DNA of 64,000 nt. It comes from Escallonia rubra (Eukaryota; Streptophyta; Magnoliopsida; Escalloniales; Escalloniaceae). The position numbers and the translations under genes were made by a program. The notes under the pieces were generated by a model. It did not search any database, had not been told where the DNA came from, and was given only the letters and a program-made list of their open reading frames with translations. Positions 7,528-50,523 of this stretch are shown piece by piece. The first letter of the stretch is position 1, and each line of letters opens with the position of its first letter. The stretch is from contig JAVXUO010002935.1 of the NCBI GenBank assembly GCA_033065855.1, positions 496,001-560,000 on the forward strand, given 5' to 3'.

Positions 7528-7532
7528 GGTTC

Positions 7533-8364
7533 TGTTGGTACCAAATATTTTGACCAGTAGTGTCCAGACATCTGGCATAGTGATAGTCACTGAAGAAATG
7601 CATGAATAAAGGAAGTGAAAAAGAACACGGTTACAGTATTATCGAATTATAAGGAGTACATGAATAAGCAAAGAAAGCGGGAGAACCAAATATTTGAATA
7701 AGCCGTACAAGAAAGAAGAAACCGCCAAATCGATGTCACGGTCGATAACGCACCATGAAAGTTGGGTAGTGGAGACAAGAAAGAGGAAACCGCCAGTCAA
7801 TGCCACGGTCGATAATGCACCATGGAAATCGGGTAGTGGGGACAAGAAAGAAGAAACCGCCAGTCAATGTCACGATTGATAACGCACCATGGAAGTCGGG
7901 ATTTTAAAGTAAACCGCAATGGACACGATTAATGAGTTTTCAGAAATCATGGAGATTGAGATAAAAGATGACAGTTACCAAGGAAGGGCAGTTACAGACA
8001 TTATCAAGTATAAAACAAATGAAAGGTAATAAAGAAAGGGGTCGTCAATCTTCCCAACTATATTTAGACTAAGAAAATAACATAGATAGCTTGCATATTT
8101 CTCTTGTAAGGAGACTTTTAGATGATTTGTGTAGCTTCGATAGGAAGCATAGTTCGTTGTAAGAATTGTGTTCGAATCACGATCACTTTTGTGTTTATAA
8201 TTCAAGTGGGCGCATTGATTATTGATCTAGTTAGTTTGCTTTTATTAGTGAGTTTTCCTTTTTAGTGAAGTCCTCAGGCCCGAGAGGCAAAAAAGATCAC
8301 ACGCTGTTCATCGATTGCGTCGTCGGCGCGCGATCGATAGTGAGTTTGCCCAGCAGCGCAAACA
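7533..8364 (+). repeat. 5' LTR of the Tat element
   Basis: It starts TGTTGGTACC and ends GCAAACA. A TATA-like TATAAAAC lies at 8010-8017, placing transcription start in the second half. An internal repeat built around GAAACCGCCAGTCAATG and GATAACGCACCATGGAA occurs three times at about 7715-7905. Confidence 0.93.
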
Positions 8365-8384
8365 TTGGCACGCCCGGTGGGACA
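8365..8384 (+). promoter_or_regulatory. Primer binding site of the Tat element
   Basis: TTGGCACGCCCGGTGGGACA directly abuts the LTR end. It looks like the complement of a tRNA 3' end and primes minus-strand DNA synthesis. The tRNA was not identified. Confidence 0.8.
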
Positions 8385-8406
8385 CATGTAGCTAAAAAAG
8401 AAAACT

Positions 8407-10980
8407 ATGCCCAGCACACGGAGCAATGTTGTGAGGCGAAATGGTACCACTAATGGTATCGAGAATTTAAACACCAACAACAATGGTAATGGCTCAGAAG
8501 AAACAATAAATAATCAAGCCGTTAACGGCATGAATGGAACTGAAAATATGAACGCTAACGTTCAAGATTCAGGAAATTTCAACGGAGGAAGTTCCAGTGA
8601 CAGTGGAAGTCTTAACCTGGGGATGCTGAATATCGGTCACAGTAGCCAAACTTTGGCACAGATAATGGACCAGGTTAGTTCATCAAACCAAGAAGTTAAA
8701 GATATGGTATCTAGGTTTATGATTGTTATGGAAAATCAAACTATGTCTTTGAATAAATTGGTTACTGAGCAGAGTCAGTTTGGTTCTAAAATAGTAGAAC
8801 AAGTGAAGCGAGCTTCAGAGGAAAGAAATACCTCTGAAAAATAAATGGTAAAAGGTTTGTCAGGAGAAATCCAAAAACATACTACTTCTATCGCTAAAGT
8901 AGTAAATTCGAAATTGCAAAAGGGGAAAGCCCCTATTATCGATCATGTTGATTCTTTGGAGATCGGCGGGTCTCCTATAAGGATAAAAAATGGTGTAAAG
9001 CAAGCAAATGGTTTAAGCTCAAATCAACCGCATGATTCTGGTTGGTACATTCTCGCACCTATCGACGGGGGGGGGGGGGAATGAGCCAAATAGGAAAGAA
9101 GTAGGAGGAAGTGGAACAAAGAATCCTGCTACATGACCCAATAGTATCAACAACCCTAGAAATGGGAATAGCCAGCATTATGCTAATCAGGGAGTAGAGG
9201 GTACTTACGCTCCTCCTCATAAGAGGAACCTAGAAAAGGTGAATAGGTTTGAAAACCCAATGTTTGAAGAGACAACCGATAACCGTCAAATAAACAATAG
9301 AGAGAAGGTGGGTTACAAACCTATACCACACCTACCACACGAATTCCATCGAGTTGGAATGGCCCAAGTGCCTCATTTCCCACATGAATTCCATCGAGTT
9401 GAAATGAATCAGATGCCACAATTTCTTCATGAATTTCCACGCGTTGGAATGGGTCAGGGATACAGGCCTATTGATAGGCCTTTATATCGAAAGCCATACC
9501 CTGATGATATCGATCAGTGGGAAATGCCTAGGGGGGCAAAGATCCCAGAATTCAGTCTTTTCCATGGTGAAGGAAACCAGTCGACCATCGAACACATTGC
9601 TAGGTTTACCTTTCAATGTGGGGATTTGGGCCAAGTTGATTGGGTCAAGTTGAAATGGTTTCAATATTCATTAACTGGCGTAGCATTCTCATGGTTTGCA
9701 AATTTGCCACCTAATTCAGTGTTCTCTTTTAGAGACATGGAAGTTTTATTCCATGCTCAATTTTTTAAAATGGAACCTGAAATTTCGTTGGCTGATTTGG
9801 CTAGGTTGAAACAACATTCAGGAGAAAATGCTGAACAGTTTTTGGAAAGGTTCAAAGCTTCAAAAAATAAATGCCATTTTCAAATGCCAGAATCAGAATT
9901 GGCAAATTTAGCTCTCAATGGCCTAGATCTCGAAATTAGGAAAAATTCGAATGAATGGAGTTTAGAAATTTTTTTGAATTATCATCCAGAGTGACTCGAT
10001 ATGAAACTTTGTTGAGAGAAGAACAGATTAAGAAAAATTCTTCTATGGGAACTTATTACCAGGATCTCATTGATCTAGAGATAGACGCTGCAAAAATGGT
10101 TGGGAAGAAGCCAGTCATCTGTGATACTTTGGTTAAAGTAAAAAATCCCATCAGCTTGCCTTCGAGACAACCAAACAAGTTGAATTCATCGCCTCCATTG
10201 AGGAAATACTCGTTCGATATAAATCAAGCGGATCAGATTTTTGATCATCTTTTGCAGATTAAATTCATTCAGTTGCAAGGACCTCTTCGAATACCAAAGG
10301 ATAAAAAGTCAAAATTCTGTAAGTGGCACAATACTATTAGTCATAATACTAATAATTATGTTATTTTTTGAAATGCGGCGCAGGATCAAATCGAAGCCAG
10401 ACTTCTCAAATTTATGGACAAAGACAAAGAGGTGATGGAAGTAGACAGTGACCCTTTTCCAAAGATGGTACTCGATGTAAATATGGTATCGATGGACTAC
10501 AACCCAATCGATTGTTCAAGCGGGGATGAAAGTTCTGATAATGACAATTTCAAGATGAGAAAGCTTTTGGAAAGAGATTGTAACAGGAAGGAAACTAAAG
10601 GTATGTTGAGTTCAGAATATGACGAGATATTCGGCCATAGAAACAGAAAAAGGGAAATTTTCTATGGGCTGATGACGAAAGCAGTTCCAACAAAAGAAGT
10701 GTGATTTTGAAGATGGGCACTTCTGTGTCAAAAATTGGACCGATAGGAGAGCCAATATGTCAGAGTTGTGGTTCCTCTAGAGAATGGTCAGAAAAAATGC
10801 GGCGAAAAGACCACTTAGCAAAAGATAAAATATGCCGAGAAACAGCACCAGAAGACAGACCAAGAAAATCGGAGTTGTTCAGGCCAGGCATGAGTTTTAG
10901 ACAGCCAAATATGGCTAATCAAGTTATCTATCAAAACAACATAGGAGCTGGACATTTTGGATCAAATATGGTGAAACCAA
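8407..10980 (+). pseudogene. gag of the Tat element (broken)
   Basis: Starts MPSTRSNVVRRNG 43 bp after the LTR. The N-terminal part is Asn/Gly/Ser-rich followed by a coiled stretch. An in-frame TAA at 8842-8844 interrupts it, and a run of 13 G at 9067-9079 shifts the frame. The capsid-like core is at about 9520-9990 (GAKIPEFSLFHGEGN, WFQYSLTGVAFSWFANLPP, LARLKQHSGENAEQFLERF), as in Tat/Athila gag. A further frameshift lies in the T run near 9970, then RYETLLREEQIKK and a late region with NYNPIDCSSGDESS-like acidic sequence. Three tandem copies of a 17-residue PHEFHRV unit precede the capsid core. It is defective as read, unless these breaks are sequencing errors in homopolymers. Confidence 0.85.
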
Positions 10981-10992
10981 GATCTGGACCAT

Positions 10993-12330
10993 TTGATCCA
11001 ACATGTGTCCAAAAATTACAAAGGAAAAAATCCTATACCAGCCGGACAAAGAAATGAATATCGGGTGATGCAAAGATACCGAGGAGAATCTAGGATGTTG
11101 AAACCAAAAATCCCTTCTGATGAAGATTGGCATACAGTTGGACAAGAGAAAGTTCATTTCCCAGAAACGTATCAAGGTTTAAGTCGAACACAGAAGCGTC
11201 GGGTTCAAAGGAAGTTCGCAGCCATTATGCAGAGAGAATTAGAGATCAAACAAGCCCAGCTCGAAAGGAGGAAGTGGACTTGGACAAGAGAAGAAGAGGG
11301 TGTGAACTTAGCTGAAGTTCAACTTAAGAAACAAACAGAAGAAGAGTTTTTTCAGGCAATGATTGCAAAAGGAAAATTTCAACCACTTGAGCAGATGTCG
11401 GTTGATAAAGAAGAAAAGATGAATACCCACGAAGAAAAAGAAGTGAAGAAAGAAAACAAATTAACCGTTAGAGATAAAAAGATAGAAACCAAAAGAAGGT
11501 TATTCTTTGGAGAACACGAAACAAGTATCGACTGCAATATGGTGTTTGTTCTTCCTCTCACATTTGAAGCAAAAAAAGAGCAAATGGTTCAAGTCGAAGA
11601 AGATGTGGAGGACGAAAAGGCACCGGTACCAAACAACTTTGCAGTTAAAGAAGGGGATGTAATAGCAAGTGAAATGAGCCAAAATCATTCAGACAAAGGA
11701 ATAATGATCGATCGTGGAAATAGAGTCATATTGATTAAACCAGATCCTCAAAAGACAAGGCATTTGAAGCCTTTATTTATCTCCACACTGATGGATGGTC
11801 AACCAGTGGCCAGAGTATTGGTCTATAATGGAGCAGCGGTAAACATTTTGCCCACCAGAATGCTGAGGAAACTATGTAAAGACGAAAAAGATATGATTCC
11901 CTCTGAGATCATCGTGTGTAACTTTGCAGGAGGAATTTCCAAACCAAAAGGTGTGGTCCCAATAGAATTGACCGTTGGAAAGAAAACAAAGATGTCACCA
12001 TTCTTTGTTATCGATTCTTCTTCGAGTTTCAATGCTTTGCTTGGAAGAGATTGGATACATGTAAATGGCTGTATACCATCATCACTTCACCAGGTTTTAA
12101 TATTCTGGAGGGAAGAAAAAAATGGCAAGAATGTGGCTGAATTAGTTTGGGCTGATGACAAGCCATTTCTAGCAGAGTCAAATTGTCTTGAAGCAAAATT
12201 TTATCAGCAGAAAATGGAACCACTAGTTTTAGATGAAGATGGGGTTTTAGTGGAATGTCGAGGAATCAGTTCGATGGTTGGACCTGGAAACAGAAGGTCC
12301 TTACCAAACATGCAAGAAGAAGGTTTTTAA
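10993..12330 (+). pseudogene. Aspartic protease region of the Tat pol
   Basis: A 445-codon frame whose first half is a charged linker (QKRRVQRKFAAIMQRELE and a Lys/Glu-rich stretch). The retropepsin-like domain is at about 11700-12110: FISTLMDGQPVARVLVYN, then GAAVNILP, and later FNALLGRDWIHVNGCIPSS. The catalytic Asp position reads Tyr (TAT at 11824-11826), one base from GAT. Without that Asp the enzyme should be inactive. The frame ends at 12330 and pol continues in another frame from about 12312, so a frameshift separates protease from RT. Confidence 0.85.
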
Positions 12331-14723
12331 TGAATAGACGATCATCGAGAGAGAACAGAATGCAATGGGAATCAGAACGTGCTCCCATTGCCCAAAATTT
12401 GGAAATAGAAGGAGACGATAAACATTTTGAAGATCAGCCGACAGCGGTTGAAGAAATGAGTGAGTTTAGAAGAGGACATGAAGAAATCATGCAAACCTTA
12501 AGAAAGTTGATGGTCTATGCCATGGAGAAAAGATTGGCAAGATTATCACCTATCGATTGGGCAGAATGCGTTGAAGATGACGAGAAAGACCGATTAGACG
12601 GAATTCGGTTACAAGATCTTAGATTGGCACCAGCCAAGTTAGATGATCTGAGAATAGAAACACAAGATCCATTGATCGAGGTAAATCTGGGGACAGAAGT
12701 TGATCCACGACCAATTTACATCAGCGCTCAGTTACCGTTTGAAAGCAGGAGAAAAATCATTGACTTAGTTAAAGAATACAAAAACTGCTTTGCATGGAGT
12801 TATGAAGAAATACTGGGTTTAGATAGGAAGCTGATGGAACACAGACTACCTATTAAGCAAGGATTCAAGCCGTTTATGCAAGCCCCCAGAAAAATGTCGA
12901 ATGAAGTAACGTTACTGGTGAAGGAAGAAATCGAGCGGCTTCTCAAGGCCAAGTTCATCAGACCAGCCATGCCTATTGTAGATATGTTAGTTGATTCTGC
13001 GTCTAAGCATGTTATTATGTCATTTATGGATGGAAATGCGGGTTATAATCAGATTTTCCTTAAAGATGAAGATATTCATAAAACAACATTTAGATGTCCT
13101 GGTGCGATAGGCACATTTGAATGGGTAGTTATGCCTTTTAGTCTAAAAAATGCTGAAGCAACATACCAAAGAGAAATGAATTTAATTTTTCATGATATGA
13201 TTGGCAAGTTTTTAGAGGTATACATTGATGATGTGGTTGTAAAATCAGAAGATTATCAAAAGCATGTTGAACATTTGGAAAATGCTTTTATACGGATGAG
13301 AAAACATGGCCTAAAAATGAACTCATTAAAATGCGCATTTGGAGTTTCTGCAGGTAATTTTTTAGGATTTTTGGTCTATCAAAAAGGGATCGAAATCGAT
13401 AAGAACAAAGCAAAGCCCATTATAAATGCTAAACCTCCTTCAAATAAGAAAGAGCTTCAGCGTTTTTTGGGGCAAGTCAATTTCTTACGTCGATTCATTG
13501 CTAATCTAGCAGGAAAGACAAAAGCATTTTCAGCATTATTAGGGATGAAAGGAGATACAAAATATCGATGGGAAGCAGAACAACAATCGGCTTTTCAATC
13601 GATTAAAGAGTATCTAACCAAACCCCCCGTACTGATGCCACCGAAGATCGGGAGGCCTTTGAAGTTATATGTATCGGCAGCGGAGTCATCTCTTGGAAGT
13701 CTTTTAGCCCAAGAAAACGACCAGGGATTTGAACATGCTATTTATTATTTCAGTCGAGGTTTAAATATAACTGAACAAAAATATACGGTTATTGAAAAAC
13801 TATGTTTGACTCTATATTCTACTGCAGTTAAACTTCGACATTATATGTTGCCGTTTGATGTGCTAGTTATAGCACAAACCGATTTGATAAAATATATGTT
13901 ATCTAGACTAGTGTTGAGAGGAAAAATGGGCAAATGGGTTCTAGCATTGATAGAATACAGCTTAACATATGTTCCTCAAAAAGCTGTGAAAGGACAGGCA
14001 TTGGCTGATTTTTTAGCAAATCATCCATGTAATAACCCAGAAGATGGGGTAATATATGTGGGTATTGCTCCTTGGAGAATGACGTTTGATGGGTCAAAAA
14101 CTAGCCAGGGAGCTGGTGCTGGTATAATACTAATATCTCCTGATGGTAACATACACCAGTTTGCTTTCCAGCTTGAGAAAGATTGCTCTAACAATCAAGC
14201 AGAATATGAAGCCTTAATCATCGGTTTAGAAATACTATTGGACATGCACATCACTATAGTGAAAATATCTGGAGATTCTCAACTGGTGATAAAGCAATTA
14301 AACATAGAATTCAAATGCAATGCCCCTTGTTTAGAGATGTACTTCAGCATTGCAACATATTTATTGGCAAAATTTGATGATGTAACTATAACTCATATTC
14401 CCCGGATAAATAATAGCAGTGCCAATGTAATGGCTCAGTTAGCTTCAGGTTTAAAAGTCCCTGAAGGAGTCGATGGACAATGGGTGAATGTGTCAAAGTG
14501 TCTGCCAATGATCAATGACAGGTATAAAGATTTAGAAATGGTTAACCCAATCGACGCAGTTCAAAACGATTGGAGAATGCCAATCATTCAGTATCTACAA
14601 AATCGAGAATCAAGAGTAGATACAAAAGTAAAATTACAGGCAACCAAATATTTCTTGTTAGATAATAATTTATTTATACGAACGCCAGAAGGATTGTCAC
14701 TTAGATGTTTAGGACAACAATAG
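12255..14723 (+). pseudogene. Reverse transcriptase and two RNase H domains of the Tat pol
   Basis: RT is at about 12830-13480, with FMDGNAGYNQIF (first catalytic Asp), FRCPGAIGTFEWVVMPF and the active-site box YIDD at 13221-13232. The sequence jumps from KAKFIRPA to MPIVDMLVD at 12968/12969, so roughly 40 residues normal for this family are missing in frame. The first RNase H-like domain follows (RWEAEQQSAFQSIKEYL, about 13560-14030). A second, archaeal-type RNase H is at 14070-14450 (MTFDGSKTSQGAGAG, NNQAEYEALIIGLE, ISGDSQLVIKQL); its last acidic position reads Asn (SSANVMAQLAS). The double RNase H marks the Tat lineage. A TAG at 14721-14723 separates it from integrase. Confidence 0.9.
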
Positions 14724-14726
14724 GCA

Positions 14727-15857
14727 ATGCATGTGATGGCTGAAGTACACGACGGTATATGCGATGCCCACCAAGCAGGAATCAAAATGAGGTGGTTAAT
14801 TAGACGACATGGCCATTACTGGCCTTCCATAATGGAAGATTGCACCCGATATGCAAAAGGATGTCAGGCTTGCCAAAAGCATGGAGCCATCCATCTTGCG
14901 CAGTGTATTGAATTACAATCGATAGTAAAGCCATGGCCATTTAGGGGATGGGCCATGGATTTAATAGGTCAGATACATCCTTCTTCATCCAAAAGACATG
15001 GATTTATAATTGTAGCAACTGATTATTTTACGAAGTGGACAGAAGCTAAGCCTATGAAAACGGTTACACAAGAGAGTGTAATCACTTTTATCAAAGAGAA
15101 CATTATCCATCGATTTGGATTACCTCAAATAATCACGGCCGATAGAGGTACCATTTTTACTGGGGGGGGGCAAATACGGGAGTTCGCCAAAGAATACATG
15201 TTTGAGATAATAAATTCTACTCCCTATTATGCACAGGCAAATGGCCAAGCCGAAACAACAAATAAATCGATTAAGCACATCGTGGAGAGAGCCATTGAAG
15301 ACTCCCCAAATGAATGGCACCGCCTGTTATTGGAGGTTCTTTGGGCATTTCAAACTTCCCCTAGGTCCAGTACTGGGATAACACCATATGCTTTAACATA
15401 TGGACATGATCATGTATTACCTATGGAAATAACTGTAAAATATTTCCGTGTAGCCATGCAAAACAGTTTACCAGTGGCAGAATATAACGAGGCCATGGCA
15501 ATCGAATTGGAAGAATTGGACGACCATCGATTGGATGCATTGGATAGATTACATGCACAAAAACTAAGGGTAAGTAGATCTTATAATCGGAGGGTCTTAC
15601 CAAAAACATTTTAGGAAGGAAATTTAGTGTGGAAAACCATACTGCCCATAGGTTCAAAAGACTCAAAATTTGGTAAGTGGTCGCCAAATTTGGAAGGACC
15701 TTTTGTAGTCCATAAAGTTTTGAGAGGTGGAGCATATTGGTTGAAATCAATGGAAGGACAATTGTATGCTAAGCCGATAAATGGTCGATATTTAAAAAGG
15801 TATATCCCTTCCATGTGGGAAGGAATAGAATCAATCGATAGAGATAGTTTGCACTAA
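14727..15857 (+). pseudogene. Integrase of the Tat pol
   Basis: The zinc-binding region is at 14740-14885 (AEVHDGICDAHQAG, CTRYAKGCQACQKH). The catalytic core has WAMDLIG (Asp at 14958), ITADRGT (Asp at 15141) and GQAETTNKS (Glu at 15252), the D,D-E triad. A run of nine G near 15163-15172 makes the Asp-Glu spacing one residue longer than usual. The C-terminal part (KFGKWSPNLEGPFVVHKVL, WLKSMEGQLYAKPINGRYLKRY) follows after a TAG at 15612-15614. The protein would insert the DNA copy. Two nonsense codons bracket it, so this copy is not autonomous. Confidence 0.9.
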
Positions 15858-15991
15858 CCTGATAAAGGTTAAGAAAGCAAAATATATATATAAAAAAAAA
15901 CTGCAAGTAAGATGTAAGGAAAACAGTTTGATTACTGATAAATTGATAATAGTCCTAAAACAAAGTTAAGCAACAAGAGTAATTGTTTACA

Positions 15992-16951
15992 TCAAATATC
16001 AAAAGCAGATTGAATTTCTGCCCAAATCATGATTTGGTCAGCAAAAGCGAGCTGAGATTGTGTTCTAGCTCGTTTCTTTAAAGGCTCCTCCATAGCTGCG
16101 GTTAAATCAACAGCCTCTTGATAGACACTATTTTGCTGTTCCATCAGACAATGCTCTTTCTGATTCAGTGCGTTCATCTTTATTTCCAACTCTTTCTTCT
16201 CGGCCTTAATCTCATCAATCTCTCTAGAAATCTGCAAACTAATCTGATGCTTCTCTTGGACTTGGACGTTTAAGACATCAATATCTCGATCTATTATCTG
16301 AACATTAGATCTAATGTTCATACCTTGTTTCCAAGAAGCTGATATCAGAGAGATTTGGAATTTTAAAGTAGATATTAGAGCCGACTGAGCAACGTTCAAA
16401 GCTGATGTATTATCAGCGAGGGTATCGATCAAATCGTTCATCTTCAGTATGGCATCCTCATTAGCCAAAATATCAGGAAGACGGTGGCTAAGCAAACTTT
16501 TAAAAACGTTAAGAATAGCAACCGTATCAACACTGGAAGGCGAAGCCGATGTACTGCTCGAAGGACATGAAAATGCACTAATGACTGACTGAAGTTGCAA
16601 GACCTTACGGTTTATGTCATCAACAGCTGGAATAGGAGCAGAAGTTTGTCGAGCAGCCAAGATACCTGTAGCTTCTGTTATCATCTGGACGATTGAAAGA
16701 GAACTAGAAACAACTGGAGGGGCTGATGACTCAGACATTGAAGGGACAACTGCAAAATGACTAGATGTTATAGGTGTGAGTTTAGGACCTTGAGCCAGAT
16801 CTGCATCAGCAGAGAAACAACCTTCAGTCGGAAGGTGAGTTTCAACAGGTGGAAGATTAGGCAAAGCAGCATCATCTAGTTGTTCAGAATGGTGATCGAT
16901 AGGAAGATCATCAGAATCTTCTTTATCTGGAATATTGCAAGGTTTATCGAT
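15992..16951 (-). CDS. Last exon of the antisense PMD gene: Ser/Pro-rich and coiled-coil tail
   Basis: A 319-codon uninterrupted exon after a TTTTGCAG acceptor. The first half is low in complexity with Ser, Pro and Ala (SESSAPPVVSSSLSIVQMI). The second half is a likely coiled coil (QVQEKHQISLQISREIDEI, KAEKKELEIKMNALNQKEH) followed by a basic patch LKKRARTQ. This long frame is intact although the sense pol of the same element is broken. It could mediate self-association or nuclear binding, which is inference. Confidence 0.75.
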   Translation of the reverse strand: MDKPCNIPDKEDSDDLPIDHHSEQLDDAALPNLPPVETHLPTEGCFSADADLAQGPKLTPITSSHFAVVPSMSESSAPPVVSSSLSIVQMITEATGILAARQTSAPIPAVDDINRKVLQLQSVISAFSCPSSSTSASPSSVDTVAILNVFKSLLSHRLPDILANEDAILKMNDLIDTLADNTSALNVAQSALISTLKFQISLISASWKQGMNIRSNVQIIDRDIDVLNVQVQEKHQISLQISREIDEIKAEKKELEIKMNALNQKEHCLMEQQNSVYQEAVDLTAAMEEPLKKRARTQSQLAFADQIMIWAEIQSAFDI

Positions 16952-18091
16952 CTGCAAAATAGACAACAATAGAGTATGAGTCACTAATAAAATAACAGGT
17001 TACGATGGTCAAAAATTTACAAACCTGTTGAGGAGAAGATGCTGATCGAGGAGGAGTAAGAGCTGGAGATGCCCTATTACTAGTGATCTCTTTATTAATC
17101 TCCACGCTAGCAGAAGCATTGGAAGAAGTATCATCGGAGTTGTCATCCTTGCTGGCACTCCCCTGAGTCAAATCGATGGTAATACCACCTAAATCCTAAA
17201 TAAGGGGGGTAAAACAATGAATTTAGCAAGTAAATACAAGAGCCAACAAAATAATTTTTTACCTTCAAAGACATGGTTCTTGCGCTAAAACGAGTTTTGC
17301 GAGCAATGCTTTTCTTCCTGGTGGATTTTGATTTTCTCGAAAGAACTCCTAATCGATCGATTGGGGCAGGAGAAGACTCTTGTGCTTGTTTAAGAGCAAC
17401 ATCAGCAGAAGTTCCCATTTCAACAGAAGATTTTTCAAACGATCTAGCATCTTGATCGGCTGCGCGAAGATAAAATAAAGGTCGAAATAAGCTCTTAGTG
17501 TATATCAGAAAATGATACAATAACAAAGAGATTCAAACCTGGCTGGAAAGGGACAAAAGTTGAAACAGTCTGAGAAGAGAGAGCAACACTTAAAGGAACA
17601 GCCGATATTGGTTCTTCTGATGGATGGTTAGAAGGGATATCATCAGGTACATGCTCAAATTGCCTCTTCTTTTCTCTAATTGTTTTTCTATGATATATAA
17701 GAGGAACATTATCTTCTTCATCATCTTCTTCTTCCATGTTTTCAAACTCTTTTTCTTTTTCGGATAATAAACCCTCAGAGGAGTCATCTGAATCATCATC
17801 AACTTCATGTTTTTCTGAAGAAAGCTCAGTAACGGGCTCTTTCCTTTTTCTACTCGATACTGCTTGAGAAGATCCTGCAGAAAGAGATCGATCCCTTTTC
17901 CTAGAAGCAGTAGGTTGATTGATATTTTCTACATTGATAAATTAAGATTTAGTGGAAAATAATATAAGATCAACCATAAATAGCAACAAGAGAAAAAAGA
18001 ATACATGGTCGATGTGGGTTGTCCACAGCTAAACGAACCATACAAGAAGCATAAGTGTTGTCACCATGAGACATTCTCTTGATACCAGGAG

Positions 18092-19290
18092 TCAAAAGGA
18101 GTGACTGTCCATTGATTCATCAACGGCTCTGTCGATTCTCTTGATATGATTCACTGTGATCCGTTTAATTCTTTCTTTAGATTCCAAAAAGCCGTTATCT
18201 ATGAAAAAAGGGGCTGGAATCCCTTGCGCCAAACCAAATTGCTGGCCAAATTGAGAAGGAGTATACCGCTCATATCCACAAGATCCTGAAGGAGTGGTAA
18301 TAATTTGACCACCTGAATGAAGAAATCGCCCACAAAGAAAACTAGCCCATATCCTTCGAACCATATCTTGGAATTCGATGGACATAGTATCATTGATGTA
18401 AGCAGGAAGGTTTCTAAACCAGTGAGGACCGATTGATCGGGCAAGAAAAGGGTGTCCACGCTTGTAGAAATTGAAGTAAAAAAAGAAACGAAAACAGGAT
18501 ATAAAAGAATGTAGCCTGATATCACCCAAAGACAAGCGATGACCATAAGTCAAGAAGAAAGAATCAGGTTGGTTAGGAATTGTGGGACTAAATTCTGGAA
18601 AATAGGCATGCAACCACAGTTGTATCAACCAAAAAAGACCACTAGTGCTCCAATGAATTTTCTTTTCCACCATGGTAAACATCAACCTATACAAATTACC
18701 CAATACTAAGGGTGCAAGAGCATATTTCCTACCATGAGCTAAGTTGATAGCTAAGTTCAGATATTCTTTGGTCAAAGAAAGACTAGAAACACAGAAAACA
18801 TGACGAGAAAGCCACATCCAAAGGAAAATGGCTAACTCTTTTAAATCAGGAGAAGAATTAACATTCTTTGATTTAAGAAAATATCTTTCAAAGGTCTCAG
18901 AATATTTGGAAGATGAAACATCGAGAGACAGATTGGTAGGATTATGACAAGTCAAAGCATTAGCGTGACCACCAATCGGCAGAAGGCCCGTTAAGGCACA
19001 AACATCGAGTATGGTAGGGGCCATCATCTTGGTTTTTAACATAAGAGCGTTGGTAGTAGTTGACCAGAAACAAAAAGAGCTAGATAAAAGCCATCGATCT
19101 ACTTTGGGAGGGGTTTTAGACATATGAATGGTTCAAAAATACCTTGCCGTTTCCATTGATCGGCATAGGTAGCAGATAAACGGTCAACCCATAAACCCCA
19201 ATCGACATGAATTAGAGTCGGCCAGGATCTAATCGGCAAACCAGTCTCACCCCAACCCTTCCAATTTAAAAAAGGCGAATTGAGCAGCAA
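18092..19290 (-). pseudogene. PMD (aminotransferase-like plant mobile domain) segment of the antisense gene
   Basis: Reads LLLNSPFLNWKGWGETGLP and WVDRLSATYADQWKRQGIF (19290-19130), then after a one-base shift DRWLLSSSFCFW, MMAPTILDVCALTGLLPIGG, ELAIFLWMWLSRHVFC, LAHGRKYALAPLVLGNLYR and GLFWLIQLWLHAYFPEF (19100-18590). These are the conserved blocks of the plant mobile domain, in order. The C-terminal part (FQDMVRRIWASFLCGRFL, YERYTPSQFGQQFGLAQGIP) is also typical. The 343-codon open frame at 19123-18092 suggests selection until recently. Confidence 0.88.
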
Positions 19291-19531
19291 CTTTTCTGAG
19301 TCATCGACTGGGTATCCTTTTAGGGCTTGAGGACGAACCCTAAACGAGGGACCTAAAATATGCGGGGTAGATGTTGAGCGTTACGTGAATCAATAGGGTC
19401 AATATGATTCATAAGAGCCCCAACTCCCCACCGAGGGTTTGGAGGACACTCTACTCCATCTCCCTCATCGCCATGAGGAAAAATTCTTATCTTCACCATA
19501 ATCGCTGAAGGGAACATTGAAAGAAGCAATT

Positions 19532-19546
19532 GAGGGTTTAGGGTTT
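19532..19546 (-). promoter_or_regulatory. Telo-box-like motif upstream of the antisense PMD gene
   Basis: On the minus strand this reads AAACCCTAAACCCTC, 33 bp upstream of the ATG at 19499. Such telo-boxes are common in leaders and promoters of plant genes active in dividing cells. Its place in the likely 5' UTR supports the antisense unit being a real transcription unit with plant-type control. Confidence 0.55.
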
Positions 19547-19655
19547 AACTTAAAGATTAACTTAAAGCAGCTTCGAATAAAAATGGTTAATAGTTTTAAA
19601 AGCGATAGAAGTTGAGACAACAGAGTTAACTCACCCGACTGTATCGTCGCGCGAG

Positions 19656-19669
19656 TTAAAGGGGGGCAA
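19656..19669 (+). promoter_or_regulatory. Polypurine tract of the Tat element
   Basis: TTAAAGGGGGGCAA directly precedes the 3' LTR start TGTTGG. It would prime plus-strand DNA synthesis. Confidence 0.85.
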
Positions 19670-20503
19670 TGTTGGCACCAAATATTTTGACCAGTAATGT
19701 GCAGACATGTGGCATAATGATAGCCACAGAAGAAATGCATGAATAAAGGAAGTGGAAAAGAACATGGTTACAGTGTTACCGAATTATAAGGAGTAGATGA
19801 ATAAGCAAAGAAAGCGGGAGAACCAAATATTTGAATAAGCCGTACAAGAAAGAAGAAACTGCCAAATCAATGTCACGGTCGATAACGTACCATGAAAGTT
19901 GGGTAGTGGAGATAAGAAAGAGGAAACCGCTAGTCAATGCCACGATCGAAAATGCACCATGGAAATCGAGTAGTGGGGACAAGAAAGAGGAAACCGCCAG
20001 TCAATGTCATGATTGATAACGCACCATGGAAGTCGGGATTTTAAAGTAAACCGCAATGGACACGATTAATCAGTTTTCGAAAATCATGAAGATTGAGATA
20101 AAAGATGATAGTTACCAAGAAATGGCAGTTACAGACATTATCAAGTATAAAACAGATGAAAGGTAATAAAGAAAAGGGTCGTCAATCTTTCCAACTACAT
20201 TTAGACTAAGAAAATAACATAGATAGCTTGCACATTTCTCTTGTAAGGAGACTTTTAGATGATTTGTGTAGCTTCGATAGGAAGCATAGTTTGTTGTAAG
20301 AATTGTGTTCGAATCACGATCACTGTTGTGTTTGTAATTCAAGCGGGCGCATCGAATATATCGATCTAGTTAGTTTGCTTTTATTAGTGAGTTTTCCTTT
20401 TTAGTGAAGTCCTCAGGCCCGAGAGGCAAAAAAGATCCCACGCTGTTCATCGATTGCGTCGTCGGCGCGCGATCGATAGTGAGTTTGCCCAGCAGCGCAA
20501 ACA
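19670..20503 (+). repeat. 3' LTR of the Tat element
   Basis: Aligns end to end with 7533-8364, with about 22 differences in the first 380 bp and fewer later. It is followed by the TSD GGTTC. Confidence 0.93.
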
Positions 20504-20559
20504 GGTTCATGCTGCAAAAAAATTCTGTCCCGGAAGGCATGTACTTGGGTCCTTCGTGA

Positions 20560-24739: not shown

Positions 24740-26420
24740 TATGGGCCAAAAATCCATTGCAACCTTTCATAAGAAATATTTTGGCACCAAGTGCCAAAAT
24801 GCAACATGGTAGGATATAGGCTCATAACCCTGTAACCTAAACTCGGGAACATTTGGCACACAAAATGAAATCTCTTTCAAGAAACAATCAATAGATGCTT
24901 GGAAACTAACAAGCCAATCCATACCCAAAATGACATCAAAATCTTGTATCTCAAGAGGGATGAGATTATCAGAAGGTCTCTATCACCTATACGAGCAATA
25001 CAATGACTATATATAAAGGATGCAATAAGAGACTTGCCAAATAGAGTACTAACAGAGGGGTCAAAGTTTAGAGGCTGGGATTTAACATTTAAGCAATGTG
25101 CAAAAGCAAGGGAAACAAAAGAATGTGTGGAGCCAGAATAAAACAAGGCATGTGCATCAAAAGAGTTACTATGAAGTGTACCTGACACCACGTCATTGGA
25201 TGTGGAAGCATCCCTAATGTTCATGGCATAAGCTCGGTTCTAAACCCTGGGTATCAGATCATTGCATGTCATTGGTTTACCATTTCCACTTGGTTCCCAA
25301 GGAGAAGCTTATTTGGATGAGGGCAGTTTCTAACTTGGTGATCCAACGGTCCATAGTTAAAGCATGCACTTGTAATGTGATAACATGGTCGATTCCCGTG
25401 GTTCCTTCCACTCTTCTGAGATGCTCCCGTTGTACTAGTGCTCTATGCTGGAGCCCTGTTCCCTGAATATGATGCTGGAGTTCTCCTCTTACTATCTTAA
25501 GCCACATACTTGCCTTAAAAGTTGCATTCTTCTCTATTTCGCTTCTTCTTCTGCTCGTCTCTCTCCTTGTAATACATTTCATTATCTTGCTCAATGGCTT
25601 GTGATGCCTCCATTATCTCATCATACACCTTAATATTGTTACCAGATAGCTTACTTTGAATATTTGGTTGGAGCTTAGCTCGAAATCTTGTCACATGGTG
25701 CTCTTTTGTGAGTTGCATATCTGGATAATCCTATGAACTCTGCTTCATAATGGGCAAGTGACTCATGCTGCCCTTGTTTCAAATTAATCAAACGTTACAA
25801 CATCTGATCCCTCTCAAGCGCGAAATATACTTGTCAAAAAAAGACTGCTTGAGTTCTTGCCATGTAATCGGCCCAACATTCACAGGTCTGGTGTGATTTA
25901 CCCTCTTCCGCCATTGAGCAACATTACCCTTAAACTTGTACATTGCAAAATCCGCCCTTTGAATGTCTCCACAATAAGATCCTAATTTTTTTTTTCAATA
26001 TCAGCAATCCACTCCCCCGTTTCACCAAATCAGTCGCCTGCTTAAACTCCATGCCAACTTAGGAAACTCAAAAATTGAAGTTCTAACCCCTCTCTGCCAC
26101 CTGCTGCTACTTGAGTTTGCACTTGAATCGTCTAGGCAAAGTTAAGAAGGGCATTCACAACATTCCTTTCATTATTGTCAGTGTTTGCTAAGGGGTAGTA
26201 TTGTTGCATCTCCCAGTACAACCACCATGAGTTTCATTGCGACATGACATCCTATTATGATAAGGAAGAATGTAAGTGTTATAATGTGATGAACACGATA
26301 TATGCTTTAAATAAATTAGCAATCCTTGTACAAAGTTACAATCTTTATCCCAGTACCATATATAATCAAATTCCTACAAAGAGTCTACAGGACCCTAATT
26401 TTATGCTATGATACCAAACA
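24740..26420 (-). mobile_element. Chromovirus-like Ty3/gypsy remnant (gag and protease)
   Basis: Read on the minus strand, a primer-site-like TTTGGTATCATAGC follows an LTR ending GGGGCGTGACA (plus 26421-26430). Degenerate gag pieces follow (RFRAKLQPNIQSKLSGNN, IMEASQAIEQDNEMYYKERD), then a knuckle-like PLDHQVRNCPHPN near 25330 and a protease. The fragment stops around 24740 before RT. All frames are broken. Confidence 0.7.
24877..25224 (-). pseudogene. Retropepsin-like domain of the chromovirus-like remnant
   Basis: The 115-codon frame reads VVSGTLHSNSFDAHALFY then SGSTHSFVSLAFA, the usual protease start of Tekay/Del-type elements. The catalytic Asp position is Tyr (TAT), as in the Tat element's protease. 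The frame ends about where RT should begin. Dead remnant. Confidence 0.7.
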
Positions 26421-26544: not shown

Positions 26545-27791
26545 CTCCGCGTACTTTGCGGAACCCGAGCCTGGATATATTTGTTAGCCTTCTCGAGAAG
26601 GACTTTCATATTACCTGGAGGACTTTTGTTTACAGAGAACGCAAACTTGGATGTTGGTCAGAGGCCTCGGAGGAAGGTAGCATACTTCACGGATTCGTCT
26701 AAGTTATCGATTTCCAAAGTAGCTGCGTTGAATCGTCCGACGAAGCATGCCAAAGATTCGTTTTTCTCTTGCACGATGTTTAGCAGACTCGCCGAGTTTT
26801 GTCTTCAGGAGCGACTGCTTACAAAGTGTTTTTGAAAGAGATCCGATAATTGGCTGAAGGAGTAGATGGATCTTGGTTGTAGAGACTTGAACCATGCATG
26901 TGCAACTTTTCTCAGAGTGGTAGGAAAGGCTCTGCACATGACAGCATCTGAAACCTGGAGGAGTAACATGTTTGTTTGAAACTGATAAACATGTTCTCCT
27001 GGATCTCCAGCTCTGTCGTAGAGGTCACACTGAGGCATGCGAAAATTGGGAGGTAGCTTTGCCTTTTTGATGGTTTCGGATAACGGATATCCAGATTCTT
27101 CCTCGGGGGAGATCGTTCTGGAGAGTTATATCTAGGGACCATCTTCCAGGAGTCCCGTTCTCGAGAACGAAACTCAGGCATCCTTTTTCTGGGGACAGAT
27201 CTTTGAAGGGTCTCAGCTCTGGCGACCCGTTTGGGGGAGGGGTTGGTACTGCCTTCGACTGATGGATCCCGTTGATAGCATGATCCACTCTTGGTCATGT
27301 GATCTCAACTCTTCTCTCTTGGGTCATAAGTTGGATCGGCCGCTGATCTGTATTTGCGGCCGTAGCTTGATCTGGAGGTGAGACGAAGACGAAGGTCGCT
27401 TGGGTTAAGATGAGAATGGTGAGTGGACGGTGGAGCCACTGCCATGTCGAGCTTTCGCTGAAGAGTGTTTACAACATCCTTCAATTCATGGATTTCCTTT
27501 GTAAGGTTGTCATGTGGTGTTTTGAATAGCTGACGGTTCAGATGATGACGGAGGTCACCGTTCTTCAGAGTAGACATTGGAGATCGGTTTCTCCGAGGTC
27601 TAGTTTCTGCTTCGGGAGTAGCAGATGTTACGTTGACGTAAACATCTTCAGAAGAACTGGCGCGATGGCTGTGTGAAGGGGTCGAGTGTCGGTCATGAGA
27701 ACGACCTGGTCGACGAGAGCCGCTAGTTCCCGCATGATGGTTCTGGGAATGATTCTGTGAAGAGTCATCTGAAGAAGAATGATTAGCCATG
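26545..27791 (-). pseudogene. gag remnant of the palindromic element
   Basis: On the minus strand a 161-codon frame starts MANHSSSDDSSQNHSQNHHA at 27790 and carries a coiled KEIHELKDVVNTLQRKLDM. Further frames show PRYNSPERSPPRKNLD and the capsid-like MPQCDLYDRAGDPGEHVYQF, TNMLLLQVSDAVMCRAFP, AHAWFKSLQPRSIYSFSQLS (27038-26805), then LKTKLGESAKHRAR. This is Ty3/gypsy gag, interrupted by stops. It ends near the left terminus of the insertion, so protease and pol are missing. Confidence 0.8.
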
Positions 27792-27802
27792 TTCCCTGTA
27801 GT

Positions 27803-27824
27803 GGTCCCACGGATGGCGTCAATC
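27803..27824 (-). promoter_or_regulatory. Primer-binding-site-like motif of the palindromic element
   Basis: Directly after the palindrome end the minus strand reads GATTGACGCCATCCGTGGGA, close to the GGCGCC...GTGGGA primer sites of many plant gypsy elements. It fixes the strand and supports the palindrome end being an LTR end. Confidence 0.6.
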
Positions 27825-28386
27825 TGTTGCAGCTAAAAACTGGATCGGGAACAACACCAGAAATCAGGCCTGCAAAAGAGAACACGGAGTGACCGCCGGG
27901 TAGGGTTCCGGCGGGGGAACGCTCCGATGCTTAAGTCAGAGAAGGCTAACAAGGTAGAACTCTGAAAAGCAATATTACACAATGTGTATGTGTGTGAACT
28001 TATCGTTACCTGGGGGGGCTTGACCCCTTTATAAAGTGGTAGGAGGAGGAGTCCTAGTAGGACTGGATTTTGACCAACTCTAATCGGAATCTAATTAGGA
28101 TCTTAGAGGATCTCATGTCAATCTTGGCTGATAGAGTCAAAGCTTCTTTAGGATTCTGTCTGATGATTGATATGGTAAGTGCCATATCAATAGTGAGCCA
28201 GTACGGGTTACGTGTCATAGCCACCACGTGTCGTCCGTAGATTGGAGGGATATTTTTAGCTATACCATATGCCCCTTGCTTTTACCAGCGTTTGATGAAG
28301 CGGGTGGAAGCACACTTTTTCCACTGGTGATAGCGAAATATGCCAAAAAATAGAATTGAATTTATTTATCCGACATTTCAAGAATG

Positions 28387-29417
28387 TTCTACTCGGACAA
28401 GGTTCTGCTCGGATAAGATTCTGCTCGGGTAAGAATCTGCTCGGATGGGATTCTGCTCGGGCATGAATCTGTTTGGATGGGATTCTGCTCGGGCATGAAT
28501 CTACTAGGCCGAGATCACTCTGCTCGGGCAGAGTGTTCGGATGAAATTATGCTCGGGCGGAATTTTGCTCGGATGGGATTCTGCTCAGGCATGAATCTGT
28601 TCGGATTGGATTCTGCTCGGGCACGAATCTGCTCGGCCGAGATCACTCTGCTCGGGCAGAGTGTTCGGATGGAATTCTGCTCGGGCAGAATTCTGCTCGG
28701 ATGGGATTCTGCTCAGGCATGAATCTGTTCGGATATGATTCTGCTCGGATACGAATCTGCTCGGCCGAGATCACTCTGCTCGGATACGAATCTGCTCGGC
28801 CGAGATCACTCTACTCGGGCAGAGTGTTCAGATGGAATTCTGCTCGGGCAGAATTCTGCTCGGATAGCATTCTGCTCGGCCAAGATCACTCTGCTTCGGG
28901 CAGAGTGTTCAGACGGAATTCTGTTCGGGTAGAATTTTGCTCGGATGGCATTCTGCTCGGGCATGAATTTTGTTCGGCCAAGATCACTCTGCTCGGGCAG
29001 AGTGTTCGGACGGAATTCTGTTCGGGTATAATTTTGCTCGGATGGCATTCTGCTCGAGTATGAATTCTGCTCGGGCATGAATTCTGTTCGGCCAAGATCA
29101 CTCTGCTCGGGCATAGTGTTCGGATGGACTTCTGCTCGGCCGTTGTCACTCTGCTCGGGCAGAATGTTCGGACGAGGTTTTGCTCGGCAATGAATTCTGT
29201 TCGGCCAAGGTCATTCTGCTCAGGCAGAATGTTCGAACAGGATTCTGCTCGGACATGAATTATGTTCGGCCAGGGTCACTATGCTCGGGCAGAGTGTTCG
29301 GACGGCATTCTGCTCGGGCAGAATTCTATTTGGCCGTTTTCATTCTGCTCGGCCCTTGTCATTCTGCTCGGGCAGAGTGTTCGGACGAGAATCTGCTCGG
29401 GAAAATTCTGTTCGGCC
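28387..29417. repeat. 16-bp quasi-palindromic tandem repeats, left arm
   Basis: Units such as CTGCTCGGATGGGATT and CTGCTCGGGCATGAAT repeat with a 16-bp period. A higher-order block with GGCCGAGATCACTCTGCTCG then GGCAGAGTGTTCGGA recurs about every 50-130 bp. The core TCTGCTCGGGCAGA is almost its own reverse complement. Long open frames here are repeat translations, not genes. Confidence 0.9.
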
Positions 29418-29444
29418 AAAATCTTGATCCTTCACATCTCCTAA

Positions 29445-29930
29445 GGCATTTTTTCCGGACAAAGAACGCAAAGGCTGAGAAGTTGAAGGTTGTGGAGGTT
29501 GAGAGGATGAAGGTGGTAATGGTTACGAAGTTGAAGGTTGTGGCAATATTGGATTCGAAGTCCCAACTTCACTTCCAGAAGTCAGAACTCGTTCTGAACT
29601 CGAAGATGAGCTACTACTTATTGTTATATTCTCTTGAGGAGAAGAAACAGACACTGAAGTATCGGACATGTTTTCTATTACAAATAGGAAATTACGACAA
29701 ACTTGAAGCGCTGAGTAGAAAGAGAAGAAGAAAAACTTACTTGAAGAGTAGTGTGCTTCCAAAAATTTCGAGTGAAGGTAAAATGAAATGAAAGTTCTCT
29801 TTTTATAGAGAAACCCCAAGTAACCATTCCTTGGCAAATGCAACGGTTCATTTCTCCCACACGTGTCACAAGCTGAAGAGGAGAGAATCTTGAAAATTTT
29901 AAAATTCCCGCTCAAAGACATTAATGGAGA
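29445..29930 (-). promoter_or_regulatory. Loop of the palindrome: G-box, TATA box and short ORF
   Basis: On the minus strand the loop has ACACGTGT (29866-29859, a G-box core), a TATA-like CTATAAAAAGAGAAC near 29808-29795, a leader with TTCAAGTAAGTTT (donor-like), and an ATG at 29669 opening a 48-codon Ser-rich frame (MSDTSVSVSSPQENIT) that stops at 29523. It reads toward the left arm and the gag. It may be the element's own U3 promoter or a captured promoter plus first exon. Confidence 0.55.
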
Positions 29931-29956
29931 AGGAGACACATGGAAAGAACCAAGAT

Positions 29957-31004
29957 TTTGGCCGAACAAAATTTGCCCGAGCAGATTCTCGTCGAACACT
30001 CTGCCCAAGCAGAATGACAAGGGCCGAGCAGATTCAAACCCGAGCAAAATGCCGTTCAAACACTATGCCCGAGCAGAGTGACCCTGGCCGAACAGAATTC
30101 ATGTCCGAGCAGAATCCTGTCCGAACACTCTGCCCGAACAGAATGACCTTGGCCGAACAGAATTCATTGCCGAGCAAAACCTCGTCCGAACACTCTGCCC
30201 GAGCAGAATGACCTTGGCCGAACAGAATTCATTGCCGAGCAAAACCTCGTTCGAACACTCTGCCCGAGTAGAGTGACAACGGCCAAGCAAAATGCTGCCC
30301 GAGCAGAAGTCCATCCGAACACTCTGCCCAAGCAGAGTGATCTTGGCCGAACATAATTCATGCCCGAGCAGAATTCATACCCAAGCAGAATGCCATCCGA
30401 GCAAAATTCTGCCCGAACAGAATTCCGTTTGAACACTCTGCCCGAGCAGAGTGATCTTGGCCGAACAGAATTCATGCCCGAGCAGAATTCATACCCGAGC
30501 ATAATGCCATCCGAGCAAAATTTTGCCCGAACAGAATTCCGTCCGAACACTCTGCCCAAAGCAGGGTGATCTTGGCCAAGCAGAATTCCATCCGAACACT
30601 CTGCCCGAGCAGAGTGATCTCGGCCGAGCAGATTCGTATCCGAGCAGAATCCCATCCGAACAGATTCATGCCTGAGCAGAATCCCATCCGAGCAGAATTC
30701 TGCCCAAGCAGAATTCCATCCGAACACTCTGCCCGAGCAGAGTGATCTCGGCCGAGCAGATTCGTGCCCGAGCAGAATCCCATTCGAATAGATTCATGCC
30801 TGAGCAAAATCCCATCCGAGCAGAATTCCTCCCGAGCAGAATTCCATCCGAACACTCTGCCCGAGCAGATTCGTGCCCGAGCAGAATCCCATCCGAACAG
30901 ATTCATGCCCGAGCAGAATCCCATCCGAGCAGATTCTTACCCGAGCAGAATCTTATCCGAGCAGAACTCTGCCCGAGCAGAACCTTGTCCGAGCAGAACA
31001 CTCT
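29957..31004. repeat. 16-bp quasi-palindromic tandem repeats, right arm
   Basis: Inverted counterpart of the left-arm array, with units such as AATCCCATCCGAGCAG and ATTCATGCCCGAGCAG. The copy number and order of higher-order blocks are similar to the left arm but not identical. Confidence 0.9.
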
Positions 31005-32107
31005 TGAAATGTCAGACAAATAAATTCAATTCTATTTTTTGGCATATTTCGCTATCACCAGTGGAAAAAGTGTGCTTCCACCCGCTTCATCAAACGCTGG
31101 TAAAAGCAAGGGGCATATGATATAGCTAAAAATATCCCTCCAATCTACGGACGACACGTGGTGGCTATGACACGTAACCCGTACTGGCTCACTATTGATA
31201 TGGCACTTACCATATCAATCATCAGAACAGAATCCTAAAGAAGCTTTGACTCTATCAACCAAGATTGACATGAGATCCTCTAAGATCCTAATTAGATTCC
31301 GATTAGAGTTGGTCAAAACCCAGTCCTACTAGGACTCTTCCTCCTACCACTATATAAAGGGGTCAAGCCCCCCCCCAGGTAACGATAAGTTCACACACGT
31401 ACACATTGTGTAATACTGCTTTTCAGAGTTCTACCTTGTTAGCCTTCTCTGACTTAAGCATCGGAGCGTTCTCCCGCCGGAACCCCACCCGGCGGTCACT
31501 CCGTGTTCTCTTTTGCAGGCCTAATTTCTGGTATTGTTCCCGATCCAGTTTTTAGCTGCAACAGTAATGATGAGCACTAATAGCATTATGTCGAACGAGA
31601 CAAAATTTCAATAACTTTAAGTCCTAGCAGAACAAAAGTGAATCTCTACGAAACCCAAAAATGCGACTACAGCAAGAGAAAAAGGTCTTGTCCAATCTTT
31701 GGAGACCAAATAACCTCATTATAACTATAAATTTTTCCACTATACTACACTAATCTTAGAAATTCCAAAACTTGCTCAAACTCCCAGCAATTTGCCCAAG
31801 CTCTAGGTGAAAACTCTAATAAATTCTCACATGAAAAATAAGGGTGAGCAAAGCCCGGCAAGAGAGATATAGGCACACCCTCGGAGTTCAATACAAAGGT
31901 ATCAATAACAAGTATTTGTAACTAAATGATAGAACGGTCAATAGACATGGAAGTGTGGTTATCCATCCACTTTACAATCAAATAGAGTTAAAAACGTCAC
32001 TAGTGATTGCAATAACAAAACAATATTGTAAAGTGCAATAAATTAATTGAACGATATACATCGTTCAATCAACCCACGTGGCAAAGTAATATAATGTGTA
32101 TCAGTAA

Positions 32108-48700: not shown

Positions 48701-50523
48701 GCCACAAGAAAGAGTCTTAAAAGTGCACACAACATCCTTTATCCCACTTTGCTTCGTCCCACTTTGTGTCCTTCGAAAAATTATCAACCTTACACGAAAG
48801 CTTCCTTGTTCATCTAAACACTATAGCCATCCCACAAACCTTCTTTGAGGCACTTGGCAAAGAGGAATGGAAGCATGCAATGAGGGTAGTACCGGAGGCA
48901 TTGTAGAAGAATAAAACACGAGAACTAGCGGAATGACCAATTGGAAGGAGACCGGTAGGGTACAAATGGGTATTCGCACTGAAGTCCGATGGATCCATTG
49001 AGAGGTATAAGGCGAGACTAGTAGTTAAGGAATATACACAGACCTATGGGGTGGATTACCAGCATACATTTGCACCATTGGCAAAGATAAATATAGTAAG
49101 GGTGTTGTTATCTCTATTAGTAAACTATGATTGGACTTTAGAACAGTTCTATACGAAGAATGCTTTTTTTTACATGAAGAGCTTGAGGAGAAAATCTATA
49201 TGGAAGTTTCACTCTGCTTTGGCATAAATCTGGGTAAAAACAATGTGTGCGGATTGAAAAAAAGCGTTATATGCGCTCAAACAATCTCCTCGTGCATGAT
49301 TTGGAAGATTACTGAAGCAATGTTGAATATGAAGTACGAACATTGCCAGGGCGATCACACATTTTTTGTCAAGCATTCGGCTTCAGGGGAGTCACAATAT
49401 TGATAGCCTATTCGGATGATATTACAGTAACTAGGAATGATTCAGATGAAAAGGAAGTTCTTCAAAAGTATTTAGCAAAAGAATTCGAAATAAAGGATCT
49501 ATGCAAATTGAAGTACTTCTTAGGAGTAGAAGTAGCTCTGCCTAAGGAAGCAATCTTTGTTTCAGAGCAAAAATATGTTCTTGACTTGCTAGAAGCAACA
49601 TGGAAACTTGGTTGTAGACCACCAAATATGCCTATTGAGCCAAATCATAGACTAGGAGAGTCTATGGAAGGAGAACGAGCTGGCATTGGCATGTACCAAC
49701 GACTTGTTGGGAGGCGAATCTATCTGTAACACACGCGGCCTGACATTGCATACCCAGTGGGTGTGGTGCGTCATTTCATGGAAAACCCTAAGGATGTCTA
49801 TCTCCATGCAGTACATAAGGTCTTAGAATATATGTTAGGCAGCCCAGGAAAATGAATTTTCTTCGGAAAGGGCACAAGTATGGAACTCAAAGCTTGCACA
49901 AATGCCGACTACGCTGACCCTGTTACTGTCAGAGATCAATGTCTGGGTATTGCACCTTTCTTGGTGGAAATTTGGTAACGTGGACGTGTAAGAAACCACC
50001 GGTTGTAGCAAGATCTAGTTCAAAGGCAGAGTTTCTTGTGATGGCACAAGGTTTTTGTAAGTTGATATGGCTCAAAATTATCCTAGCAGACGTGAAGATT
50101 AAATCGAAGACCCCAATGAAGCTTTATTGAGGCAACAAGTTTGCAACCAACATAGCGCATAATCCAGTCCAGCATGACAGAACGAAACACGTGGAAGTTG
50201 ACAAACACTTCATAAAGGAGAAGCTTGAAAAAGGATTGAGTTGCACTCCTTATATAGCGCCAATTAGCAGACATCTTAGATAAAGGATTGACAAGTTCAA
50301 CATTTCAAAGTATTGTGAGCAAGCTGGGGATGGAAGATATCTTCTCCCCAGCTTGAGGGGGAGTGTTCAAAATTTGGAATTTGATGGAAATCCCAAGCTC
50401 TATGTGAATAGCCATAATTGCCGGGACATATGTGTTTCCTGGACACGGACACCGTGTTCGACACCGACCGGGACACCGTAATTTTCAAAAAACTAGATTT
50501 TGGACATCGCAGGACACCGCTGA

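Follow-up and report, generated by a model that had tools for sequence, protein, structure and literature searches.

The plant mobile domain (PMD; PF10536) has been reported from 57% of Ogre retrotransposons (Neumann et al. 2019, PMC6317226), and the Gypsy-only PMD-A clades, PMD-A1 and PMD-A2, have been described from angiosperms, where Gypsy retrotransposons encode them (Ikeda et al. 2017, PMC5418596). Antisense genes situated ahead of the 3' long terminal repeat (LTR) are also on record, and the one carried by Grande has its own promoter and encodes a nuclear protein (Vicient and Casacuberta 2020, PMC7264820). Here we describe a 64,000-nucleotide stretch of the Escallonia rubra genome (contig JAVXUO010002935.1, positions 496,001 to 560,000 of the forward strand; hereafter the window), in which a Ty3/gypsy LTR retrotransposon of the Tat type carries a PMD gene of five predicted exons on the strand opposite to gag-pol, between the integrase and the 3' LTR. 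The reading that we favor, at a probability of roughly 0.6, is that an accessory gene of a Tat-lineage family has decayed in this copy; the gene would have been transcribed antisense to the element, spliced and translated into a nuclear PMD/coiled-coil protein.

The window gene resembles the PMD-bearing extra open reading frames (ORFs) of Ogre in being a PF10536 gene located outside gag-pol in a Tat-lineage element, but the Ogre survey counted single ORFs with a minimum of 250 codons (PMC6317226), whereas the window gene is divided into five exons. With the antisense ORFs of Retand, Grande and RIRE2 it shares the position between pol and the 3' LTR, and some of those ORFs have an Smc domain (Vicient 2025, PMC11963269; PMC7264820). 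The Retand antisense ORFs differ in that Transposase_28 is the domain reported for nearly all clusters, while a PMD goes unmentioned (PMC11963269). Beside Transposase_28, the same source gives Smc (coiled-coil) as an additional domain of these ORFs. In light of the window gene, some of the Retand antisense ORFs may belong together as exons of a single spliced gene. By analogy, the clearest functional parallel is HBZ of HTLV-1, which is encoded by a spliced antisense transcript from the 3' LTR and regulates transcription (Cavanagh et al. 2006, PMC1459196); it differs in that the protein and the virus are unrelated to those described here and in that transcription of the window gene is inferred. 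An intron in a Tat element is known from Ogre, between gag-pro and pol (PMC6317226, PMC12786077), but that intron belongs to the gag-pol transcript, from which it is removed in only a fraction of the RNAs, whereas the four introns of the window gene are on the opposite strand. A 2025 review describes plant LTR elements as generally intronless, with Ogre and EVADE as the exceptions (PMC12786077).

Published precedents thus exist both for a PMD gene within an Ogre or Gypsy element and for an antisense gene ahead of the 3' LTR; the new part would be the multi-intron antisense form. Among the literature matches listed, none described, at title and abstract level, an antisense gene with several introns in a plant retrotransposon, and the word "intron" is absent from the main texts of PMC11963269, PMC7264820 and PMC5418596. 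Surveys of single ORFs would miss such a gene as a whole because of their minimum ORF lengths, which were 250 codons (PMC6317226) and 600 bp (PMC11963269). Should splicing prove general for the antisense genes of the Tat lineage, surveys based on ORFs have measured these genes wrongly. Whether the extra ORFs of Tat elements do anything would then become testable, by strand-specific RNA and by the ratio of nonsynonymous to synonymous substitution rates (dN/dS) in exons versus introns, and the window would provide a case of a retroelement carrying introns through many rounds of copying. The gene also bears on a possible retrotransposon origin of host PMD silencing proteins.

Layout of the antisense gene and its element

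The antisense gene occupies positions 15992 to 19499 of the window on the minus strand. Its ATG is at 19499, 170 bp internal to the 3' LTR, and its stop codon occupies 15994 to 15992, at a distance of 134 bp from where the sense frame ends. The original prediction, made from the letters of the sequence without database searches, had placed an antisense, intron-bearing PMD gene of a Tat element in this interval and had named a profile search as a check. The identification held: PF10536 was matched with an E value of 1.2e-29 and a score of 104.1 bits, against a curated cut-off of 34.9. The best-scoring stretch (18569 to 19108, residues 9 to 188 of the frame 18092 to 19132) lies in exon 1 (18005 to 19499), which encodes an N-terminal block and the PMD. 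Exon 2 (17539 to 17928) encodes basic stretches and then an acidic patch, as judged by inspection, and is followed by exon 3 (17263 to 17459), exon 4 (17025 to 17195) and exon 5 (15992 to 16951). Exon 5 was divided into a linker half (16951 to 16583) and a conserved half (16582 to 15995) which may be coiled-coil-like, as suggested by weak, sub-cut-off Pfam matches of relatives and by inspection.

All four introns have GT-AG borders, and their lengths of 76, 79, 67 and 73 bp agreed with the range of 67 to 79 bp originally given. The phases, which had been checked by hand, were borne out for intron 2 (17460 to 17538, phase 1), intron 3 (17196 to 17262, phase 0) and intron 4 (16952 to 17024, phase 0), all of which join in frame, but not for intron 1 (17929 to 18004), where the joined codon is a stop in this copy, nor for exon 1, which contains three frame breaks. 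The frame of exon 5 is open for 319 codons, while the longest open run in 1,000 dinucleotide shuffles of this exon was 139. The integrity of the frame was expressed as a count of forced breaks, defined as the smallest number of frame breaks or stops that a reading of the whole stretch requires. Spliced exons 2 to 5 (1,715 bp) had a count of 0, as compared to 3 without splicing and 18 on the opposite strand; in 200 shuffles of the spliced exons the mean was 18 and the minimum 10. The introns are 68 to 76% A+T and 47 to 54% T, as compared to 59% and 32% in the exons; T-rich introns are typical of plants.

The element itself is 12,971 bp long (7533 to 20503) and is flanked by target-site duplications of GGTTC (7528 to 7532 and 20504 to 20508, neither with an assigned strand). 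On the plus strand it comprises a 5' LTR of 832 bp (7533 to 8364), a decayed sense gag-pol (8401 to 15857) with Retrotrans_gag, RVT_1, RT_RNaseH_2, RVT_3 (a second RNase H) and integrase, and a 3' LTR of 834 bp (19670 to 20503). The two LTRs are 94.7% identical, with a Kimura two-parameter distance of 0.053 (32 transitions and 10 transversions over 832 sites). At plant substitution rates of 7e-9 to 1.3e-8, this distance corresponds to an age of about 2 to 4 million years. A 67-bp tandem repeat is present in approximately 2.9 copies in each LTR (7707 to 7900 and 19844 to 20035), and self-comparison detected no second copy of the internal region of the element within the window.

Membership of the Tat lineage was supported by the LTRs, the target-site duplication and the order of the gag-pol domains, and by a second RNase H (aRH) between RH and the integrase, as in Ogre and Retand. 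In the frame 12237 to 14723, RT_RNaseH_2 occupies residues 445 to 538 and RVT_3 residues 617 to 735, and the integrase follows in the next frame. Within the Tat lineage, a second RNase H before the integrase is a hallmark of the branch that unites Ogre and Retand (PMC6317226). The element is probably an Ogre-type Tat retrotransposon, an assignment made because a PMD gene is present and this domain is known from over half of Ogre elements. The 5' LTR is followed by a TGGCACGCCCGGTGGGAC stretch; a tRNA-Arg primer binding site is a feature of the Ogre subclade (PMC9289625). The RVT_1 match in the frame 12237 to 14723 covers the 205-position profile only from position 61 onward, and the region upstream looks shortened on inspection; the reverse transcriptase probably lacks an N-terminal piece as well.

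Relatives and the pattern of constraint

A protein search with the PMD frame of exon 1 alone returned no match at an E value of ≤1e-5 among 1,969 candidates, perhaps because annotated relatives exceeded the length window of the search. The search with exon 5 detected two E. rubra proteins, P0001 and P0002, among 2,547 candidates, and both cover exon 5 only. For a query of the whole protein with an X at each break, the 7,999 candidates sharing the most words were scored, and these gave three matches, P0003 and P0004 of E. rubra and P0005 of Trifolium pratense. P0005 was the sole match with an annotated PMD, at 31% identity; its PMD is followed by a lysine-rich stretch and then by a long C-terminal tail (the last two by inspection). 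Approximately 30 residues between the PMD of P0005 and an SRKR basic stretch resemble, on inspection, a translated intron at the place of intron 1. This is a hint, from inspection only, that legumes may have intron 1 as well. None of the matches from the scored candidates bore the name of a host silencing gene and, as far as these candidates tell, the antisense gene does not appear to be a recent copy of such a gene. A sequence search of the PDB gave one chance-level match (E = 0.77), and one scan of viral contigs gave 15 pattern matches and no relatives.

The four E. rubra proteins, which are listed on contigs of four different lengths, keep the frame of the tail, with 66 to 89% identity to the window over the covered parts of the conserved half. 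The window being from Escallonia itself, they would be further copies in the same or a sister genome. When P0003 was aligned with the window by tblastn, the ends of the aligned pieces fell no more than two codons from introns 2, 3 and 4; P0004 had the same breakpoints, but with overlaps of up to 13 codons into introns 2 and 4. P0003 and P0004, the only two relatives spanning the predicted junctions 2 to 4, are continuous across them at the same residues. GT-AG introns that restore a single frame and recur in homologues were therefore found for introns 2 to 4. Intron 1 was crossed in frame in one of the two relatives, P0003, which also begins with the same N-terminal block. The genome paper describes its gene models as resting on transcriptome and protein data and/or on the Pfam domains they contain (PMC10759652). 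Loss of the antisense frame and of the splice sites from every family copy had been named in the original prediction as one of the outcomes that would count against it; the opposite was observed, with the tail frame kept in P0001 to P0004 and the junctions in P0003 and P0004.

Constraint was assessed from the residues that differ from the window codons, and their conservativeness in BLOSUM62 was compared with that in 1,000 neutral simulations at the same identity. Gaps, stops, introns and the surroundings of intron 1 were left out, as were P0005 and, for P0004, the first part of exon 2, which is in another frame. Three mutation settings were used for exons 2 to 5 and one for the split of exon 5. 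Exon 5 overall looked constrained in P0001 (P = 0.001 to 0.010) and P0002 (P = 0.002 to 0.017). Within the coiled-coil half (16582 to 15995), changes were conservative in P0004 (P = 0.003), P0001 (P = 0.001) and P0002 (P = 0.008) and less clearly so in P0003 (P = 0.086). The linker half was neutral-like in all three testable relatives (P = 0.67 for P0003, 0.84 for P0004 and 0.35 for P0001), P0002 having no coverage of it. Furthermore, the N-terminal block of P0003 was more alike than its exons 2 to 5, with 101 of 116 residues identical as compared to 342 of 452 (Fisher P = 0.008). These data suggested that the antisense frame was protein-coding and under selection while the family was active, with measurable constraint in the tail and the N terminus. 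An earlier formulation, in which near copies were neutral and far copies constrained, was replaced after exon 5 was split, the contrast being one between the linker half and the coiled-coil half.

Decay of this copy, proposed role and alternatives

The breakage of this copy had been overlooked in the original prediction. Exon 1 contains frame breaks near 19383, 19135 and 18119, the join between exons 1 and 2 reads as a stop, and no uninterrupted spliced frame is present; the antisense gene in this copy is broken, like gag-pol. The sense gag-pol has 10 forced breaks in 7,454 bp (1.3 per kb) and the antisense gene 4 in 3,210 bp (1.2 per kb). The gag-pol break near 12234 may be a natural boundary between two ORFs, and some of the breaks could be assembly errors. 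With an even spread of breaks, the probability of observing none in exons 2 to 5 was 0.11 to 0.12, and approximately 1.4 nonsense changes were expected there at the LTR distance, giving a probability of 0.25 for none. Selective keeping of the open tail in this copy was rejected on these grounds. The tail is open next to a dead pol, as had been stated, but it is no evidence of retention in this copy because the break densities are about equal and few nonsense changes are expected.

The favored reading of a decayed accessory gene entails that active copies would have an antisense promoter within or beside the 3' LTR, driving a transcript that would then be spliced and translated. The genomic RNA would carry the introns reversed, not as splice sites, and reverse transcription would copy them intact; this route for the survival of introns, as originally proposed, accords with known biology. 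With the introns unspliced on the genomic RNA, a promoter on the other strand would therefore have to make the mRNA. The PMD/coiled-coil protein would enter the nucleus, oligomerize via the coiled coil and influence transcription or chromatin of the element, either promoting its expression or shielding it from silencing. A protein that oligomerizes in the nucleus would be in keeping with the basic and acidic stretches and the coiled-coil-like tail. By analogy with the antisense gene of Grande and with HBZ, the most likely role of the protein is that of a nuclear accessory factor regulating the element.

Several observations weigh against this reading. The relatives were compared as proteins only, with the BLOSUM62 test standing in for dN/dS, and the P values are nominal, several regions and settings having been tried. 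Exons 2 to 5 as a whole were neutral-looking in P0003 (P = 0.59 to 0.83) and P0004 (P = 0.12 to 0.30). Over the stretch 16582 to 16330, which is common to all four relatives, the P values were 0.067 for P0003, 0.123 for P0004, 0.062 for P0001 and 0.033 for P0002, so that P0002 alone was below 0.05. The absence of stops in the relatives (P = 0.000 to 0.057 under neutrality) favors constraint, but this test is biased, open models being those that are annotated. P0004 crosses intron 1 in a different frame. P0003 and P0004 are chimeric annotations with ABC-transporter and squalene-cyclase domains, and because these models omit the PMD core, the PMD and the tail are not found on one intact protein of a close relative. 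The transcript, the promoter and the nuclear location of the antisense gene are predicted by analogy.

That the gene is a captured or nested passenger of no use to the element is quite unlikely, even though this copy is broken at roughly the rate of pol and exons 2 to 5 of P0003 and P0004 look neutral as a whole. A passenger would not be expected to keep its tail frame in four relatives at the identities given above, with conservative changes at P < 0.01 in three of the four, and Ogre and Gypsy elements from across the angiosperms repeatedly carry a PMD (PMC6317226, PMC5418596). A role of the antisense RNA itself, which would pair with the genomic RNA and feed small interfering RNA production or disturb reverse transcription, follows a general proposal for antisense retrotransposon transcripts (PMC7264820, PMC12786077); such a role leaves unexplained the frame-keeping junctions in other copies and the conservative replacements in the coiled-coil half, and we consider it very doubtful. 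An artefact of prediction, with splice sites chosen by eye in random open frames, is scarcely credible. The introns were initially proposed by eye, and GT and AG are frequent, but junctions 2 to 4 recur in two gene models, no forced breaks were needed where shuffles needed approximately 18, and the introns are T-rich. For introns 2 to 4 the artefact is largely refuted, while intron 1 depends on one clean relative, P0003.

The original prediction had offered counter-defense or decoy as a possible function of the gene. In such a scheme the PMD would mimic the host proteins MAIN and MAIL1, bind PP7L or shared targets and blunt silencing of the element. MAIN and MAIL1 of Arabidopsis function in silencing and bind PP7L (PMC7156037, PMC5418596), and Ikeda et al. 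speculate on an anti-silencing use of PMDs captured by MULEs (PMC5418596). No sign of mimicry of a host gene was detected, however, the sole annotated-PMD match among the 7,999 candidates scored being 31% identical, and measurable constraint sits in the tail and the N-terminal block while the models of close relatives omit the PMD core. The decoy function was not directly supported and is unlikely.

A wider form of the accessory-gene reading can be put forward only tentatively. Antisense accessory genes of the Tat lineage might generally be multi-exon and spliced, forming a plant counterpart of HBZ, with intron-blind surveys listing their exons as separate ORFs (PMD or coiled-coil "Smc"); the spliced protein would then be a conserved nuclear regulator acting against or alongside the host PMD silencing proteins.

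Other features of the window

Rfam models at gathering thresholds and a tRNA scan detected nothing over the whole window. A large inverted repeat is present at 27824 to 31564, in which 27824 to 29432 matches 31564 to 29945 with 84.7% identity over 1,707 aligned columns, and it is composed of tandem units of 128, 114 and 65 bp. Two minus-strand ORFs by this repeat (27305 to 27832 and 29523 to 30062) had no Pfam match at an E value of ≤0.1. The remaining features were a remnant of a retroviral-type protease (RVP_2; 24877 to 25239, minus strand), a piece of a cytochrome P450 gene (37800 to 38135, plus strand) and a remnant of a reverse transcriptase (RVT_2; 49316 to 49729, plus strand).

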